Shown here: piece by piece, positions 52,100-58,215 of the stretch
Numbering within the stretch: position 1 is the stretch's first letter
Layout: each line of letters opens with the position of its first letter
Source of the DNA: Arcobacter lacus
Lineage (GTDB): Bacteria > Campylobacterota > Campylobacteria > Campylobacterales > Arcobacteraceae
Direction: 5' to 3'
Assembly (NCBI RefSeq): GCF_003063295.1
Contig: NZ_MUXF01000001.1
Location: 62,001 to 126,000 of the forward strand
DNA length: 64,000 bases
Program-made: the position numbers and the translations under genes
The notes under the pieces: model-generated
Told to the model about the DNA's origin: nothing
What the model saw: the letters and a program-made list of their open reading frames with translations, nothing else
The model's database searches: none

Positions 52100-52100
52100 G

Positions 52101-52122
52101 GTAAAAACAAATTAGTTTTTAC
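52101..52122. terminator. Hairpin between the HD gene and the 58-codon ORF
   Basis: GTAAAAAC / GTTTTTAC form a perfect 8-bp stem with a 6-base loop, directly after the HD-gene stop and overlapping the convergent small ORF's stop. T-rich sequence follows. Confidence 0.55.
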
Positions 52123-52295
52123 TTTATCTTTTTATCCAAATTATCTTGTATTTTTCTTCTAATTTCATGTAGATGAGCCATAACATCTTTCAAAACTCTT
52201 TTTTTTAAAAAATATTCATCTTTATTTTTATGTTTATCACATTCTTTTTCTATATTTTTTATACTTATAATCAACAAATTATAAATATTATCCAT
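52119..52295 (-). CDS. Small charged helical protein, 58 residues
   Basis: This ORF encodes MDNIYNLLIISIKNIEKECD and continues as a Lys/Glu-rich helix (YFLKKRVLKDVMAHLHEIRR) to a basic end. It has a good AAGGAA ribosome-binding site five bases before the ATG and ends in the hairpin shared with the HD gene. No membrane segment or known motif is visible; a coiled-coil or small regulatory protein is possible. Being outside any larger gene in a dense genome supports its reality. I do not recognise it. Confidence 0.5.
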   Translation of the reverse strand: MDNIYNLLIISIKNIEKECDKHKNKDEYFLKKRVLKDVMAHLHEIRRKIQDNLDKKIK

Positions 52296-52845
52296 TTTTT
52301 GTTCCTTGTGTAATATATTTCAGTACAATAAAATTATTTATTTAATTCTTTTCATTTTATATTTATAATTATAAATATGAATATTTACACTATAATAAAG
52401 AAAAATAAGAATTTATTTATTCATAATAATAATTATATGCATCATGTTATAAAAATTATTATTTATTTCGAAGTTAGTATATTATTTAAATAAAGCTTAT
52501 TTTATGGTAAATATGAGAAATATATATTAATTATTTTATATTTTACATAATTTATATTTTAAAGATATATTTATAAGAACTAAAATAAATAATATAAGTA
52601 TCTCAAATAAGAATATTTGTATTTAGCTTAAAAATAACCATTTAATATAAATTATTTATTAATATTTATTGTTTATTGTATATTTTCATTATCAATATTA
52701 TTTATTATTTACTACTTTCATTTATTTATATAAAGATACCATTTAAAAATTATTTTCTTAAGCTTATTTAATATGTTTTTAGATAGGATTCCATTCTTAT
52801 GTTTATTAATTACTTTAAATCACCTATTTTTTATCAGAACAAAAA
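52296..52845. other. 550-bp gene-free, extremely AT-rich region
   Basis: By eye about nine bases in ten are A or T, more than elsewhere in the window. I see no ORF with a ribosome-binding site, no tRNA and no sigma-54 type -24/-12 element. A 20-bp perfect palindrome of A and T occurs at 52,359-52,378, and AAGCTTATTT occurs twice (near 52,494 and 52,760). Both could be chance in such composition. It precedes the RpoN/GIY-YIG gene and may hold its control region. Confidence 0.7.
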
Positions 52846-53943
52846 ATGAAAAAAATTCCATTTTATTTACTTACAAATAAACTTTATACAATGAGTTTAA
52901 AAAATTATTTAAATTATTTAAAAAAAGATATTTTATCTAGCAGTTGGTTTAAAGAGAATTGTAAAAATAAGAATATTAGAGTAAAAGTTTTATCAAAAGA
53001 CTATTTCTCTCAAGAACCAAAAAATTGTTATTTTATATACAATAAAGAAAAAATATATTTTTATAAACTCTTTTTACTAAAGTTTGAATATCAAGAAACA
53101 ATCAAAAACAATTATCACCTAAAGCTATTAAATATAAATATAAAACATGAAACTTTATTTAATTTAGCAACATTGTTATTTTCATCACAAAAATTATTTT
53201 TAGACACAGGTCACTATCCAAATATAATTTTTTTAGATAGAAAGATATTTATAAAATCTTATATAAAAGAATATAATTCTTACTTAGATTTATCTATTTT
53301 ATCAAAGATTTTAAACAATATAAATTATGCACAAGATAGTTATATTTATAAATTAAATCATCTATTTCCTAAAAAAACTTTTATTTATTCTGTTTATATA
53401 AAAATCTTATTAAATTCAAAAAAAGTTTTAGAAAATGATTTAGAAATATCAAAACTATTATTTGAATTGTATAATATAAAAATATCAAGACGAACTGTTT
53501 GTGATATCAGAAATAAATATTTAATTCCCAGAATAAAAAGAAATGAAGAAAAAAAACTAACATTAAACTTCAATAATTTTAATAATAAAAGAAAGATTTT
53601 GAATAAAGAAAATATTTCAACTTTAGAAAATAATTTAAAAGGTGTTTATGAACTATCATCTAATGAAAAAAATTTTTATCCATTTGCAGAAAATAAAGTC
53701 ATTTATATTGGTTCATCAAATAATTTAAAAAAAAGATTAAAAACATATACTTCAAAAACCGCACATACAAATAATATTAAAAATTTTATAAAAGAAAATG
53801 AAAAAATATACTTCAGAATAATAAAAACTTTCGATTATCAAGAGTACGAAAAAGAGTTAATAGATAGATTTATAAATATTTATGGTGATTTACCAAGATT
53901 AAATACACAGAGAATTTTAAAAGAGTTTATTCCAGAAAACTAA
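52846..53943 (+). CDS. Sigma-54 (RpoN)-like protein fused to a C-terminal GIY-YIG domain
   Basis: This 365-residue protein looks like a degenerate RpoN joined to a nuclease. Residues 8-45 (LLTNKLYTMSLKNYLNYLKK) resemble RpoN region I of Campylobacterota. Residues 100-188 resemble the core-binding domain (HETLFNLATLLFSSQKLFLD, then LDLSILSKILNN ending LFPKKTF). Residues 213-229 match the RpoN box (ISRRTVCDIRNKYLIPR), preceded by the helix DLEISKLLFELYNIK. Residues 266-355 form a GIY-YIG domain: GVY 266-268, YIG 287-289, R297, E337, LN near 353. The gene has no clear ribosome-binding site, is Asn/Lys/Ile-rich and follows the AT-rich gap. Function is unknown. Domain calls are by eye; the GIY-YIG and RpoN box are the strongest. 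Confidence 0.75.
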   Translation: MKKIPFYLLTNKLYTMSLKNYLNYLKKDILSSSWFKENCKNKNIRVKVLSKDYFSQEPKNCYFIYNKEKIYFYKLFLLKFEYQETIKNNYHLKLLNINIKHETLFNLATLLFSSQKLFLDTGHYPNIIFLDRKIFIKSYIKEYNSYLDLSILSKILNNINYAQDSYIYKLNHLFPKKTFIYSVYIKILLNSKKVLENDLEISKLLFELYNIKISRRTVCDIRNKYLIPRIKRNEEKKLTLNFNNFNNKRKILNKENISTLENNLKGVYELSSNEKNFYPFAENKVIYIGSSNNLKKRLKTYTSKTAHTNNIKNFIKENEKIYFRIIKTFDYQEYEKELIDRFINIYGDLPRLNTQRILKEFIPEN

Positions 53944-53973: not shown

Positions 53974-56115
53974 TTAAAATTTAGTTTTTAATTCAAACCA
54001 AAAATTTCTCCCTGGTTCATATATTCTCTCTTGAGCCATAAAAGTTGTAGCACTTGAAACATCTGAATTACTTAAGTGTTCCATATATGCTTTGTCAAAT
54101 AAGTTATCAACTCCAAAATTAAGTGAAACATTTTTATTATATTTATATCCACCATTTATAGAGAAGATTGAAGCACCTGGAGTTTCACCTTTGTCAACAC
54201 CATTCATAACTATACTTCCAGCTCCAATATCATATCTATCTTGTTTTGAAATAAATCTTGCAAGAATTCCAGCTGAATATTTTCCATTATCATACATAGC
54301 AGATATTTTACCTTCAAGAGGTGGTTGTTGTGCTAAAGGTTTATCCTCTGTATCATTTCTTCCAACAACATGTGTTAATGATCCTATAATTTTATAATCA
54401 CTTGTTATTTGGTAACTTGCACTTAATTCTCCACCATAGATAGTTGCATCAATATTATAAACTGATGTATAAGATGTTGTTCCCATACCATATGGAACAG
54501 TCATTGTATTTCCATTTTCATCAAACCATCTATTTAAAATATAGTCATCAACTTTACTATAAAACATAGAAGCTGAAGTTGTTAAATCACCACTTGTCCA
54601 ACTAGCACCAATATCAATTTGATTTGTTTTTTCAGGTTCTGGAATATCTATTGAAGTTATCGCATTTGGATTTGCTTTATTTGAATTATTTATACCTTCA
54701 AGGTTATATTTTGTTCTTTCCCAATAATCAGCAAATCTTTCAGAGTGTCCAAATCCGATATATGTTTTTAAACCATAATCTGGAATATCTTTTTCATATC
54801 TTATAAATCCACTTGGCAAAGTATCTTTATCTGTTTGATTATAATTTGGATTGTTGTAAATCAACATTCCAAGTTTTGTTCTTTTATCTGTTACTTCATG
54901 TTTATCTAATCTAAGTCCAGCAACAATTCTATTATCTTCATTTATATCAATTGTAGATTCATTAAAAAATCCAACTTGAGAAAAATCAAAATCTGTTTGT
55001 CTTGGAGCAGAAAGCATATCACTATCCGCTATTGAAGAAGATGTTTTCATCATAGCACTTCTTGTAGTATGTTCATCTTCTTTAAAATCTATACCAGATA
55101 CATTTGTCAATAAAAGAGATGGTATCTCAGTAGTAACTTTTAAGTTTCCTCCAATCGTTGTTCTATCTGGATTCATAGCAGAATATGCTTTTTTACCAGT
55201 CATGGCACTAATAGGAGCTTCTCTTAATGAATAATTATCCATGATATGATCTACATAGTTTCTATAAACTTGCATTTCAACTTTTTCTACATTTTTTGCA
55301 AGATTATATTTTATTACTTTTAATGCTATATTTTCTCTAAGTAATTTTGAAGCATCCATTGTTCTATCAGCGTATTTTGCTTCACCATCACCTTTTGAAC
55401 CTGAAATTTCAAAAGTAGTATCATCTGTAGGTGTATATCCTAAAGTAAGACTTGTATTCCATCTTGTATATTCTGAATCTACAATATCACCTTTACCATC
55501 TTTATAATCATTTGAATGTGAACGAGTTGCAATTAACTGAGCGTATCCTAAAGGTGCTCCTCCACTAATATCAATAAATTGATCACTTCTTCCAAAACTT
55601 CCTTGTTTAAAAGAAGAATATATATCATAATCTGGTGTAGAATAATATTTAGGATTTTTTTCAAATTGCACTACACCAGCAGAAAAACCAGAACCTGCTA
55701 ATACAGTTTGAGGACCTTTTGTAATAACTACACTATCGTAAGATTCAGGGAAAATATATGCAGTAGGAGGATCCATTCTTCCTCCACATCCTCCATATAC
55801 CTCTTGTCCATCTGAGAATATTCCAAGTTTAGAACCAGACATTCCTCTAAATATTGGATCTCCATCTGTTCCACCTTTTCTTTTAACAGAAAAACCTGGT
55901 ATATTTTTCAAAAAATCAGCTCCATCACTAGCTGGAATTGGTTGAATTGGATTTTTAGGGTCTGTTATAACTTTTAATGGATTGTCAGATTCAACAATAG
56001 AAACAACTTCTATTTTCTCTAAAACTGTAGTCTCTTTTTTTTCAGTAGTTTTCTCTTCTGATAAGAGTAAACTTGTACATAAAGATAAACATAAAATAAT
56101 CCTCTTTCTATTCAC
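53974..56115 (-). CDS. TonB-dependent copper receptor, OprC/NosA type (receptor 1)
   Basis: This protein of about 713 residues is an outer-membrane beta-barrel with an N-terminal signal peptide, a plug (ASDGADFLKNIPGFSVKRKG) and a C-terminal barrel ending in FWFELKTKF. The segment GGCGGRMDPPTAYIFPESYD is characteristic of the TonB-dependent copper receptor family. Counting from the GTG at 56115, C110 and M114 form CxxxM and H290 and M292 form HxM, the ligand set reported for P. aeruginosa OprC. I chose that GTG because AAGGA lies seven bases upstream; the GTG at 56130 has no site. It is its own transcription unit, bounded by hairpins. Confidence 0.88.
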   Translation of the reverse strand: MNRKRIILCLSLCTSLLLSEEKTTEKKETTVLEKIEVVSIVESDNPLKVITDPKNPIQPIPASDGADFLKNIPGFSVKRKGGTDGDPIFRGMSGSKLGIFSDGQEVYGGCGGRMDPPTAYIFPESYDSVVITKGPQTVLAGSGFSAGVVQFEKNPKYYSTPDYDIYSSFKQGSFGRSDQFIDISGGAPLGYAQLIATRSHSNDYKDGKGDIVDSEYTRWNTSLTLGYTPTDDTTFEISGSKGDGEAKYADRTMDASKLLRENIALKVIKYNLAKNVEKVEMQVYRNYVDHIMDNYSLREAPISAMTGKKAYSAMNPDRTTIGGNLKVTTEIPSLLLTNVSGIDFKEDEHTTRSAMMKTSSSIADSDMLSAPRQTDFDFSQVGFFNESTIDINEDNRIVAGLRLDKHEVTDKRTKLGMLIYNNPNYNQTDKDTLPSGFIRYEKDIPDYGLKTYIGFGHSERFADYWERTKYNLEGINNSNKANPNAITSIDIPEPEKTNQIDIGASWTSGDLTTSASMFYSKVDDYILNRWFDENGNTMTVPYGMGTTSYTSVYNIDATIYGGELSASYQITSDYKIIGSLTHVVGRNDTEDKPLAQQPPLEGKISAMYDNGKYSAGILARFISKQDRYDIGAGSIVMNGVDKGETPGASIFSINGGYKYNKNVSLNFGVDNLFDKAYMEHLSNSDVSSATTFMAQERIYEPGRNFWFELKTKF

Positions 56116-56144
56116 AATAAATTCCTTCACTAAAAATTTAATTT

Positions 56145-56150
56145 ATTTTA
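56145..56150 (-). promoter_or_regulatory. Possible -10 element for copper receptor 1
   Basis: TAAAAT on the minus strand lies 30 bases before the GTG start. The direct repeats at 56,161-56,190 would then cover the -35 region and further upstream. Confidence 0.35.
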
Positions 56151-56152
56151 GA

Positions 56153-56190
56153 AAAGAGGTGTTAATTTTCTGTTAATTTATTATTAATTT
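56153..56190 (-). promoter_or_regulatory. Direct-repeat operator upstream of copper receptor 1
   Basis: On the plus strand GTTAATTT (56,161), GTTAATTT (56,172) and ATTAATTT (56,183) recur with an exact 11-bp period. The 16-bp block AAAGAGGTGTTAATTT (56,153-56,168) is identical to one upstream of receptor 2. Repeats spaced by about one helical turn are typical of OmpR/PhoB-family regulators. The regulator is unknown. Confidence 0.6.
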
Positions 56191-56216
56191 TTATATTTTT
56201 TATTAACTAATCTAAT

Positions 56217-56253
56217 AATTTAAAATATAGCCTTAAAAGCTATATTTTAAATT
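56217..56253. terminator. Hairpin at the end of copper receptor 2
   Basis: A perfect 15-bp inverted repeat (AATTTAAAATATAGC / GCTATATTTTAAATT) with a 7-base loop overlaps the receptor 2 stop and lies upstream of the receptor 1 promoter. It should end receptor 2 transcription and separate the two genes. Confidence 0.7.
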
Positions 56254-58215
56254 TACGTATCCATATCTTCCTGGATCATTAAATAAAACTCTATCTCCAG
56301 CAACTTCAACATATGTAATATCTTGATAAGTATTTGTAGAGTTGTAAACTTTATCAAATAAATTATCAACTCCTAAAGTTACTTCAAAATGTTTAAACAG
56401 TGCTTGAGTATATTTTAAATTTACTACTGCATATCCAGCAAGTTCTTGTTCTTTTGCACTTGCATCATAACTATCCCATCTATCAACAGCAATTACTTCT
56501 GCTTTAAATTTAGATTTTGCATATTCATAATTTATTGCAAAATTTGCTTTTAATGGTGGAATTTCTGCTAAATCTTTATCATTTCCTGTATATTTCCCAT
56601 CTTTTTTACCTTTTAAGTAAGCAACTCCATAATCAAAAGATAAATCTTGCGTTAAATAATAAAATCCACTAACGTCAAATCCATAAATTTTTGCATCAAT
56701 ATTTTCAAATGAACCACTGTTATAAATATAATCTTTTAACTCTGAATAAAATATTTTTGGTTTTATAAAAAAACTTCCAATCGTTTTTTCAAATCCTAAA
56801 TCTGCTTCATAGTTTTTTGTATCTTCTAAATTCGGATTTGAAGCTGTTGTTTGTTGATAAAGTTCTCTAGCATCTGGAACTCTTGAAGATTTTCCAATAC
56901 CAGCAAAAACTTTACTTTCATCATCTATATTATATGCACCAAAAACATATCCATTTAAACTTGAATATTTATTATCATCTACATTTGGTCTTTGAGTTTC
57001 TATATCTGTATAGTCATATCTAATTCCTGCTTCTAAATCTAAAGCACCAAATGATTTTTCAATTTTTGTAAATACAGCTTTATTTGTTGTATCTGTAGAG
57101 TACATACGATTAGTATCGCTTGGCGTAGTTACACCAGTATTTATGTTTGTACTATACATACCTCCTCGCCAATTTCTAACGCTAGTATCAAGTCCAACTG
57201 TAACTAAAGAGTCTCCAACATCTAAAGAGTTTTTAACTGTTGTTCCCCAAACAGAAGTTTTTAGATGATTTGTCATATACATATTTCTCATCATAGCATT
57301 CGAATTTAAGAAAAAGTTTCTCTCTTTTGTGCTCATAGGATGATCCACTTTTGAATAATAGTAGTCTAAATCAAGCTGTTTTGATAAACTTCCTAATTCT
57401 CTAATTGTATATCCTAAAGTATAAATATCACTATCATCATAATCAGCATCCATTGGACCTGCTGGATATAAAATACCATCACTTCTATTTGCTGTATATG
57501 ATAGTCTTAAATCTTGGTCATCTGTAAGATTAAATTGAAGTTTTGATAAAACACTCTTTTTCTCAAAACCATCTAAGTCTTTATTCGTATATTGTTGTAC
57601 TTTTGGAACTCCTCTTTTTATTTGTTGTTGTAAGAAGTTATCACCATTTCCATCTTTGTATTGTTCACCTTTTTCAGTTGATGCTGAAATTAAAGCTTTT
57701 ACAAAATCATTTCCTCCACTGATTGTTGTACTAGCTTTTTTATATCCAAAACTTCCTGCATTTAGATTTATTTCCCCATTAAATCCCTCTTTTGGTTCAA
57801 CTGTATCAACTTTTACTAATCCACTTAAAGTTCCAAAGTTTTCAACATCATAAGGACCTTCAATAATTTTTACACTCTCTATATTATTTGTAACAATATG
57901 AGAAGTTGGTGGATCCATTCTATTTGGACAAGCTCCATAAATTTTTGCACCATCAATTAAAATATTGATATTATCCTTTTTTTGTCCCCTTAAAATAATG
58001 TCATTTGCTATACCATTTCTTCTTACAATAGAAATATTAGGAGAATTTTTCATCAAAGCATCAGCTAAATCTGCACTTTTTAATTCTTCATTACTAATAT
58101 CTTTTATAAGCTCTGAATTTGCTTTTTCAACTACATTTATGTCTTTTAAAGTTGTAGTTTCATTTGCACCCAATATAGCAGTTGCAATAAGAGACAAAGA
58201 GATAATTTTTTTCAT
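56233..58215 (-). CDS. TonB-dependent receptor with OprC-type copper site (receptor 2)
   Basis: This 660-residue outer-membrane receptor has a signal peptide (MKKIISLSLIATAILGANET), a plug with SADLADALMKNSPNISIVRR and ILIDGAKIYGACPNRMDPPT, and a barrel ending in YGYVNLKYSF. It is diverged from receptor 1 but shares the MDPPT segment and the ligand pattern: C96 and M100 (CxxxM) and H292 and M294 (HPM). It would import copper or a copper chelate using TonB; another metal or chelate is possible. An AGAAGGA ribosome-binding site precedes the ATG. The same operator block as receptor 1 lies 40-65 bases upstream. Confidence 0.86.
   Translation of the reverse strand: MKKIISLSLIATAILGANETTTLKDINVVEKANSELIKDISNEELKSADLADALMKNSPNISIVRRNGIANDIILRGQKKDNINILIDGAKIYGACPNRMDPPTSHIVTNNIESVKIIEGPYDVENFGTLSGLVKVDTVEPKEGFNGEINLNAGSFGYKKASTTISGGNDFVKALISASTEKGEQYKDGNGDNFLQQQIKRGVPKVQQYTNKDLDGFEKKSVLSKLQFNLTDDQDLRLSYTANRSDGILYPAGPMDADYDDSDIYTLGYTIRELGSLSKQLDLDYYYSKVDHPMSTKERNFFLNSNAMMRNMYMTNHLKTSVWGTTVKNSLDVGDSLVTVGLDTSVRNWRGGMYSTNINTGVTTPSDTNRMYSTDTTNKAVFTKIEKSFGALDLEAGIRYDYTDIETQRPNVDDNKYSSLNGYVFGAYNIDDESKVFAGIGKSSRVPDARELYQQTTASNPNLEDTKNYEADLGFEKTIGSFFIKPKIFYSELKDYIYNSGSFENIDAKIYGFDVSGFYYLTQDLSFDYGVAYLKGKKDGKYTGNDKDLAEIPPLKANFAINYEYAKSKFKAEVIAVDRWDSYDASAKEQELAGYAVVNLKYTQALFKHFEVTLGVDNLFDKVYNSTNTYQDITYVEVAGDRVLFNDPGRYGYVNLKYSF

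Follow-up and report, generated by a model that had tools for sequence, protein, structure and literature searches.

A sigma-54-like DNA reader joined to a GIY-YIG nuclease domain in Arcobacter lacus and its paired sites at bacterial sensor genes

The Arcobacter lacus DNA analyzed here (hereafter the window, 64,000 nucleotides) encodes, at 52846-53943 on the forward strand, a 365-residue protein in which a sigma-54-like DNA-reading part is joined to a GIY-YIG nuclease domain. Sequence comparisons confirm that the fusion is real and a member of a rare family, and the protein appears to represent a new type of nuclease with a defined target, or a new type of regulator, in bacterial sensing. Our best reading of the sequence data and of analogy with known systems, held with about as much confidence as doubt, is that it would be an RNA-polymerase-free, sigma-54-guided GIY-YIG nuclease working like I-TevI, that is, as a mobile nuclease and a transcriptional regulator.

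The open reading frame is real and intact, as given in a preliminary description of this DNA, and no ribosome-binding site is evident for it. Its residues are intact rather than decayed, with a dN/dS of 0.092 for the whole protein against the ortholog in a related genome (G003) and of 0.036 for the nuclease part, the most constrained. The protein, like its site described below, is under purifying selection. The dS of this gene against the G003 ortholog (about 0.64-0.78) is near that of other genes of the genome pair (0.37-0.67, a range that omits two TonB-receptor genes at ~0.1), so that inheritance looks vertical. The two TonB-receptor genes lie downstream, at 53974-58215 of the window, and their dS against G003 of only 0.09-0.11 suggests recent exchange. 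On the 5' side of the fusion gene there is indeed an AT-rich gap, which measures 746 bp (52100-52845) instead of the 550 bp first reported and is devoid of any copy of the paired site.

All parts of the protein are encoded on the forward strand. The sigma-54 part (residues 58-232; 53017-53541), delineated by profile and structure comparisons, consists of the end of the core-binding region, the extra-long helix, the HTH and the RpoN domain; the RpoN box, ISRRTVCDIRNKYLIPR, was borne out at residues 213-229 (53482-53532), with its RR retained. A low-confidence linker (residues 233-262; 53542-53631; pLDDT <60 over residues 231-250) separates this part from the GIY-YIG nuclease domain (residues 263-355; 53632-53910), which was identified by Pfam, alignment and model. 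The GIY-YIG fold and the catalytic residues (GIY, YIG, R, E, N) are present, the latter being conserved across distant phyla. The key residues are kept as initially described (Y268, Y287-I-G289, R297), except that E335 and not E337 serves as the invariant catalytic Glu; N353 is kept as well.

Taken alone, the window protein yields a significant GIY-YIG match (Pfam E 3.2e-8, residues 266-341) but a sub-threshold one to Sigma54_DBD (E 0.016, residues 192-229). The latter score would fit a chance or ordinary explanation, namely an HTH-GIY-YIG protein without a real sigma-54 link or a decaying gene; the family-level profiles, however, resolve it. Sigma54_DBD matches 18 of the 25 family members (best E 5e-13), and its curated cut-off is passed by three Arcobacteraceae relatives, one of which spans 8-157 of the 160 profile positions. 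Searched against the PDB, the family profile retrieves Aquifex RpoN (E 1.1e-12), and when it was aligned, profile to profile, with 23 RpoN, the match (E 1.7e-17) began at the extra-long helix, took in the HTH and reached the RpoN box. A structure model of the window protein (pLDDT 84, pTM 0.76) matches sigma-54 chains with Z up to 12.5 over ~206 residues, and the closest solved fold to its nuclease part is the UvrC N-terminal GIY-YIG domain (Z 9.7; I-TevI, Z 7.6); unlike UvrC, the fusion has no excision-repair context. A distant relative was modeled as well, with Z 14.1 to sigma-54 and 10.0 to GIY-YIG. Contradicted by the family-level profile, PDB and model results and by the dN/dS, the ordinary explanation is extremely improbable, and the predicted similarities are upheld, with sigma-54 homology at about residues 58-232 and the nuclease at 263-355.

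The description of the protein as a truncated RpoN with a core-binding-like middle stood in part: the DNA-contacting parts are kept but the core-binding domain is missing. Both models skip this domain, passing from about sigma-54 residue 50 to 270, and the domain search found no match to it in any of the 25 family members; because it is absent, the fusion protein is probably not a sigma factor. Likewise, the proposed region I-like start (N-terminal helices, residues 6-40; 52861-52965) superposes on region I in both models but finds no support in sequence profiles (hhalign E 0.96), so that homology of the N-terminus to region I is unsupported at the sequence level. On the sequence and model comparisons, we read the protein as all the DNA-contacting parts of sigma-54, minus the polymerase-binding part, plus a nuclease.

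The search of related genomes that had been suggested did find the same fusion: of 104 Arcobacteraceae genomes, 14 carry a relative, and among 399 Campylobacterales genomes, matches are confined to this family. Pattern and profile searches detected scattered distant relatives in Chloroflexota, Desulfobacterota (Desulfofervidaceae and Desulfobacteraceae), Stahlbacteria and Bacteroidota bins, several of them from metagenome bins of which the taxonomy may be wrong; two loci that matched the GIY-YIG part only (L059 and L060) were excluded. The phage records and viral contigs searched contained no relatives, and the single plasmid match is to Arcobacter cloacae pACLO. The check for a canonical rpoN in the genome of the window found none; the element as a substitute for canonical rpoN is ruled out because several carriers have both.

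At 10 of 11 independent Arcobacteraceae loci, the fusion gene is adjoined by a methyl-accepting chemoreceptor gene, against a chance expectation of ~2.6% per locus (binomial 1.5e-15), calculated for A. butzleri, which has 29 receptors (PMC2147049) in a total of about 2,250 genes. The statement that the gene sits alone holds for the genome of the window, where the copy has no receptor neighbor, but the G003 ortholog has one and the relatives' genes nearly always adjoin chemoreceptor or PAS-sensor genes; in distant genomes the neighbors are receptors, PAS kinases or REC-GGDEF genes. One genome (G029) contains a decayed second copy (L016 1501-2031), the site and neighboring receptor of which are still intact.

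Between the fusion gene and the receptor lies a pentamer repeat that is part of the paired site. The consensus of 30 distinct sites is TGG-N10-G(A/C)-(AAGAT)3+, with the GG-N10-GA/GC spacing typical of sigma-54; some copies in G030 have TGG-N9-TTGCA-like -24/-12 elements with GG-N10-GC spacing. Among 31 genomes of the genus, a 20-mer pattern picks out the 9 carriers of the gene and no others. The exact 18-mer of the site occurs in 14/14 carrier genomes and in 0/90 of the remaining Arcobacteraceae (Fisher 1e-17, kinship not corrected), five of these 90 having single one-mismatch matches to it. All 37 sites examined have a fixed orientation: 33 point at a receptor (truncated receptors and receptors preceded by a small leader ORF included), 3 at a REC-GGDEF gene and 1 at a kinase. 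Their distance to the first start codon is mostly 30-70 nt. The small leader ORFs that separate site and receptor in several operons (L033, L035, L036, L037, L240 and L242) encode 53-78 aa, and BLAST groups some of them together.

No copy of the paired site occurs anywhere in the window, and its genome has three, C14:48081, C14:48196 and C19:244273; two copies precede a receptor operon, and the third precedes a REC-GGDEF gene. Over 44/44 bp, one of these sites is identical to its G003 counterpart despite flanks of only about 60-65% identity; sites before REC-GGDEF genes are retained in three species with diverged flanks, and sites are also conserved at loci far from the gene. A conserved promoter site at co-functional genes, found only together with its regulator, is what defines a regulon, and this is the pattern seen here. 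A domesticated transcription regulator that simply represses or activates a chemoreceptor/c-di-GMP regulon, its nuclease domain being structural or accessory, is a possibility to be taken seriously, although we think it improbable. Such a regulator would be compatible with the fixed orientation of the 37 sites and their usual distance of 31-68 nt from the first start codon, with the conservation of remote and REC-GGDEF sites, and with the lack of canonical rpoN in the genome of the window, but not readily with the strongest constraint falling on the nuclease part, the conservation of catalytic residues over distant phyla, or the PAS-split loci described below, where the site is inside coding sequence and not in a promoter.

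In sigma-54, the RpoN box faces the -24 element, and the arginines of the box belong to the RpoN domain, by which the -24 GG is recognized (structure 2O8K). In the present family, the first two RpoN-box residues covary with the -24 dinucleotide of the adjacent site (RR with GG, xR with AG, and (S/T)V with TT). The pairing holds in 23/23 elements and 6/6 lineages, with p 7e-7 by elements but only 0.1 by lineages, the site register of two members (L046 and L198) having been picked after looking. In genus g9 (L040-L043), the arginines of the RpoN box have been lost from the copies, and the -24 GG is missing from their sites. The suggestion that the protein reads -24/-12-type DNA is thus supported both by the co-occurrence of sigma-54-spaced sites with the gene and by this covariation.

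Distant members adjoin a different repeat, RG-N10-GC-A-(GAA)6-12 with AG or GG at -24, within PAS-coding sequence (23 sites). The same DNA pattern is found in at least two protein contexts, ARIFFAEEE and VSIIFAEEE. Among 389 genomes of one class, GCA(GAA)6 occurs in 3/7 of those that carry the gene and in 1/382 of the rest (p 1.4e-5, kinship not corrected), an independent replicate of the site-gene pairing; (GAA)n as a common feature of PAS genes is ruled out (4/389 genomes). A third repeat type, (AAGC)13 (L048 1-52) and (AAGC)3 (L200 1260-1271), is next to two distant copies. In G418 (L226), there is a PAS kinase with two (GAA)9-10 tracts, and the RpoN_DBD-GIY-YIG gene was not found in that genome.

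In at least seven loci of the distant clade, the gene interrupts one and the same PAS domain at an identical position, and the downstream half restarts a few bases on, with GGAGGA at the 3' end of the element or with a start overlapping its stop codon. One genome (G116) has both a split (L070) and an intact (L076) PAS of the same type, and in another (G112) the PAS is split and the element is gone. An empty versus an occupied insertion site, the criterion for a homing endonuclease, was thus found on genome evidence in the PAS clade only; no clean case was found in Arcobacteraceae, the nearest one being a duplicated receptor in G006. A purely selfish homing gene with receptor genes as incidental targets and no host benefit would account for the split PAS genes with their stop/start coupling and for a family that is patchy, multi-copy and plasmid-borne, with decayed copies. 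This possibility is very unlikely, given the apparently vertical inheritance and purifying selection in the G000/G003 pair (G000 being the genome of the window) without an adjacent site, and the conservation of sites without the element.

Another proposal is a programmed shuffling of receptors, in which nicks or breaks before receptor genes would drive gene conversion or amplification among paralogs. In G012 arrays (L231, L232 and L233), each chemoreceptor is preceded by a site, and a 1466-bp, 100%-identical tract shared by arrays ~210 kb apart ends near the next site; in G006 a receptor copy is 99.3% identical to a chromosomal one, starting exactly at the ribosome-binding site; and the element is located on the 5' side of the site. 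The plasmid receptor of A. cloacae that adjoins the element (L039 9359-11211) and the chromosomal one (L093 1485-3337) are 99.3% identical over 1853 bp, from exactly the ribosome-binding site to about 107 bp before the stop codon. However, ordinary homology recombines receptor genes anyway, and the tract ends coincide with the loss of homology, so that shuffling appears unlikely. The G012 arrays also contain a 4195-bp tandem duplication.

Under the preferred reading, that of a sigma-54-guided nuclease resembling I-TevI, sigma-54 would have lost the RNA-polymerase-binding domain, retained the DNA-reading parts and acquired a GIY-YIG nuclease. As in sigma-54, the RpoN box would read GG/AG at -24 and the HTH would read GC/GA at -12. 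Since the nuclease is C-terminal and the RpoN box faces -24, the nuclease would be placed upstream of -24, and the fusion gene indeed lies on this side at nearly all sites in both clades (exceptions: L197, L198 and L048). Given a suitable cut site upstream of the bound motif, the DNA would be nicked or cut and the gene copied in, as in the split PAS genes; given none, the protein would stay bound and control the promoter, as at the Arcobacteraceae receptor genes. The promoter-like sites of Arcobacteraceae would then represent the operator role, and the split PAS genes the homing role. In the genome of the window, the gene now stands apart from the sites and so would act in trans, as a regulator of the chemoreceptor locus and the REC-GGDEF gene. 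I-TevI has two kinds of target: a homing site, which it cuts, and an operator that lacks a cut site, at which it acts as a repressor (PMC2988022). The sequences themselves show the fusion, its conservation, its association with sensor genes and its co-occurrence with sites that combine sigma-54 geometry and, after it, a tandem repeat of AAG type; we infer site binding and every later step, namely cutting, homing and regulation. Against this reading, up to 13 intact sites are found alongside an intact gene in G012, which makes free cutting at all sites impossible, and a mobile nuclease by itself does not explain conserved sites without a neighboring gene. The larger proposition, a cellular system in which a sigma-54-derived, polymerase-free nuclease is guided to -24/-12-plus-tandem-repeat sites and regulates and remodels the cell's own chemoreceptor and sensor genes, is put forward with considerable doubt.

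With sigma-54, the fusion shares the extra-long helix, HTH and RpoN box and the GG-N10-GC spacing of the paired site, and its N-terminal helices superpose on region I in models; unlike sigma-54, it has no core-binding domain, has gained a nuclease and persists in genomes without canonical rpoN. With I-TevI and the free-standing GIY-YIG homing endonucleases of T4-like phages (Seg family), it shares a GIY-YIG nuclease, a linker and a separate DNA reader, a position next to the presumed target stop/start coupling to neighbors and a possible double role as nuclease and repressor (PMC2988022). In contrast to these enzymes, its reader comes from sigma-54, the nuclease is C-terminal, its cutting and homing are putative, and the gene, a neighbor of sensor genes in cellular genomes, is paired with tandem-repeat sites. 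MobE of phage Aeh1, which splits nrdA, is likewise a mobile nuclease gene that divides a host gene into two translated parts (PMC2988022), but MobE is a phage HNH nuclease, whereas the fusion splits a PAS sensor, the downstream half of which gets its own ribosome-binding site and start codon. The literature searched contained no description of a GIY-YIG/RpoN fusion, nor any sigma-54 DNA reader outside transcription initiation. We know of no described use of such a reader in any other role. We regard the fusion as a probable GIY-YIG homing-type nuclease that is new in the origin of its reader and in the kind of target it would have.

If this reading is right, a promoter reader would have been recruited in evolution to direct a nuclease to its targets, by a residue-to-base code that can be tracked, and the pairing of site and protein permits direct and cheap tests. 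A. butzleri lacks RpoN and FliA, and the regulation of motility genes in the group is unexplained (PMC2147049); the fusion would be a candidate controller of chemoreceptor genes for some rpoN-less species of the Arcobacter group and would represent a new source of receptor-gene change.
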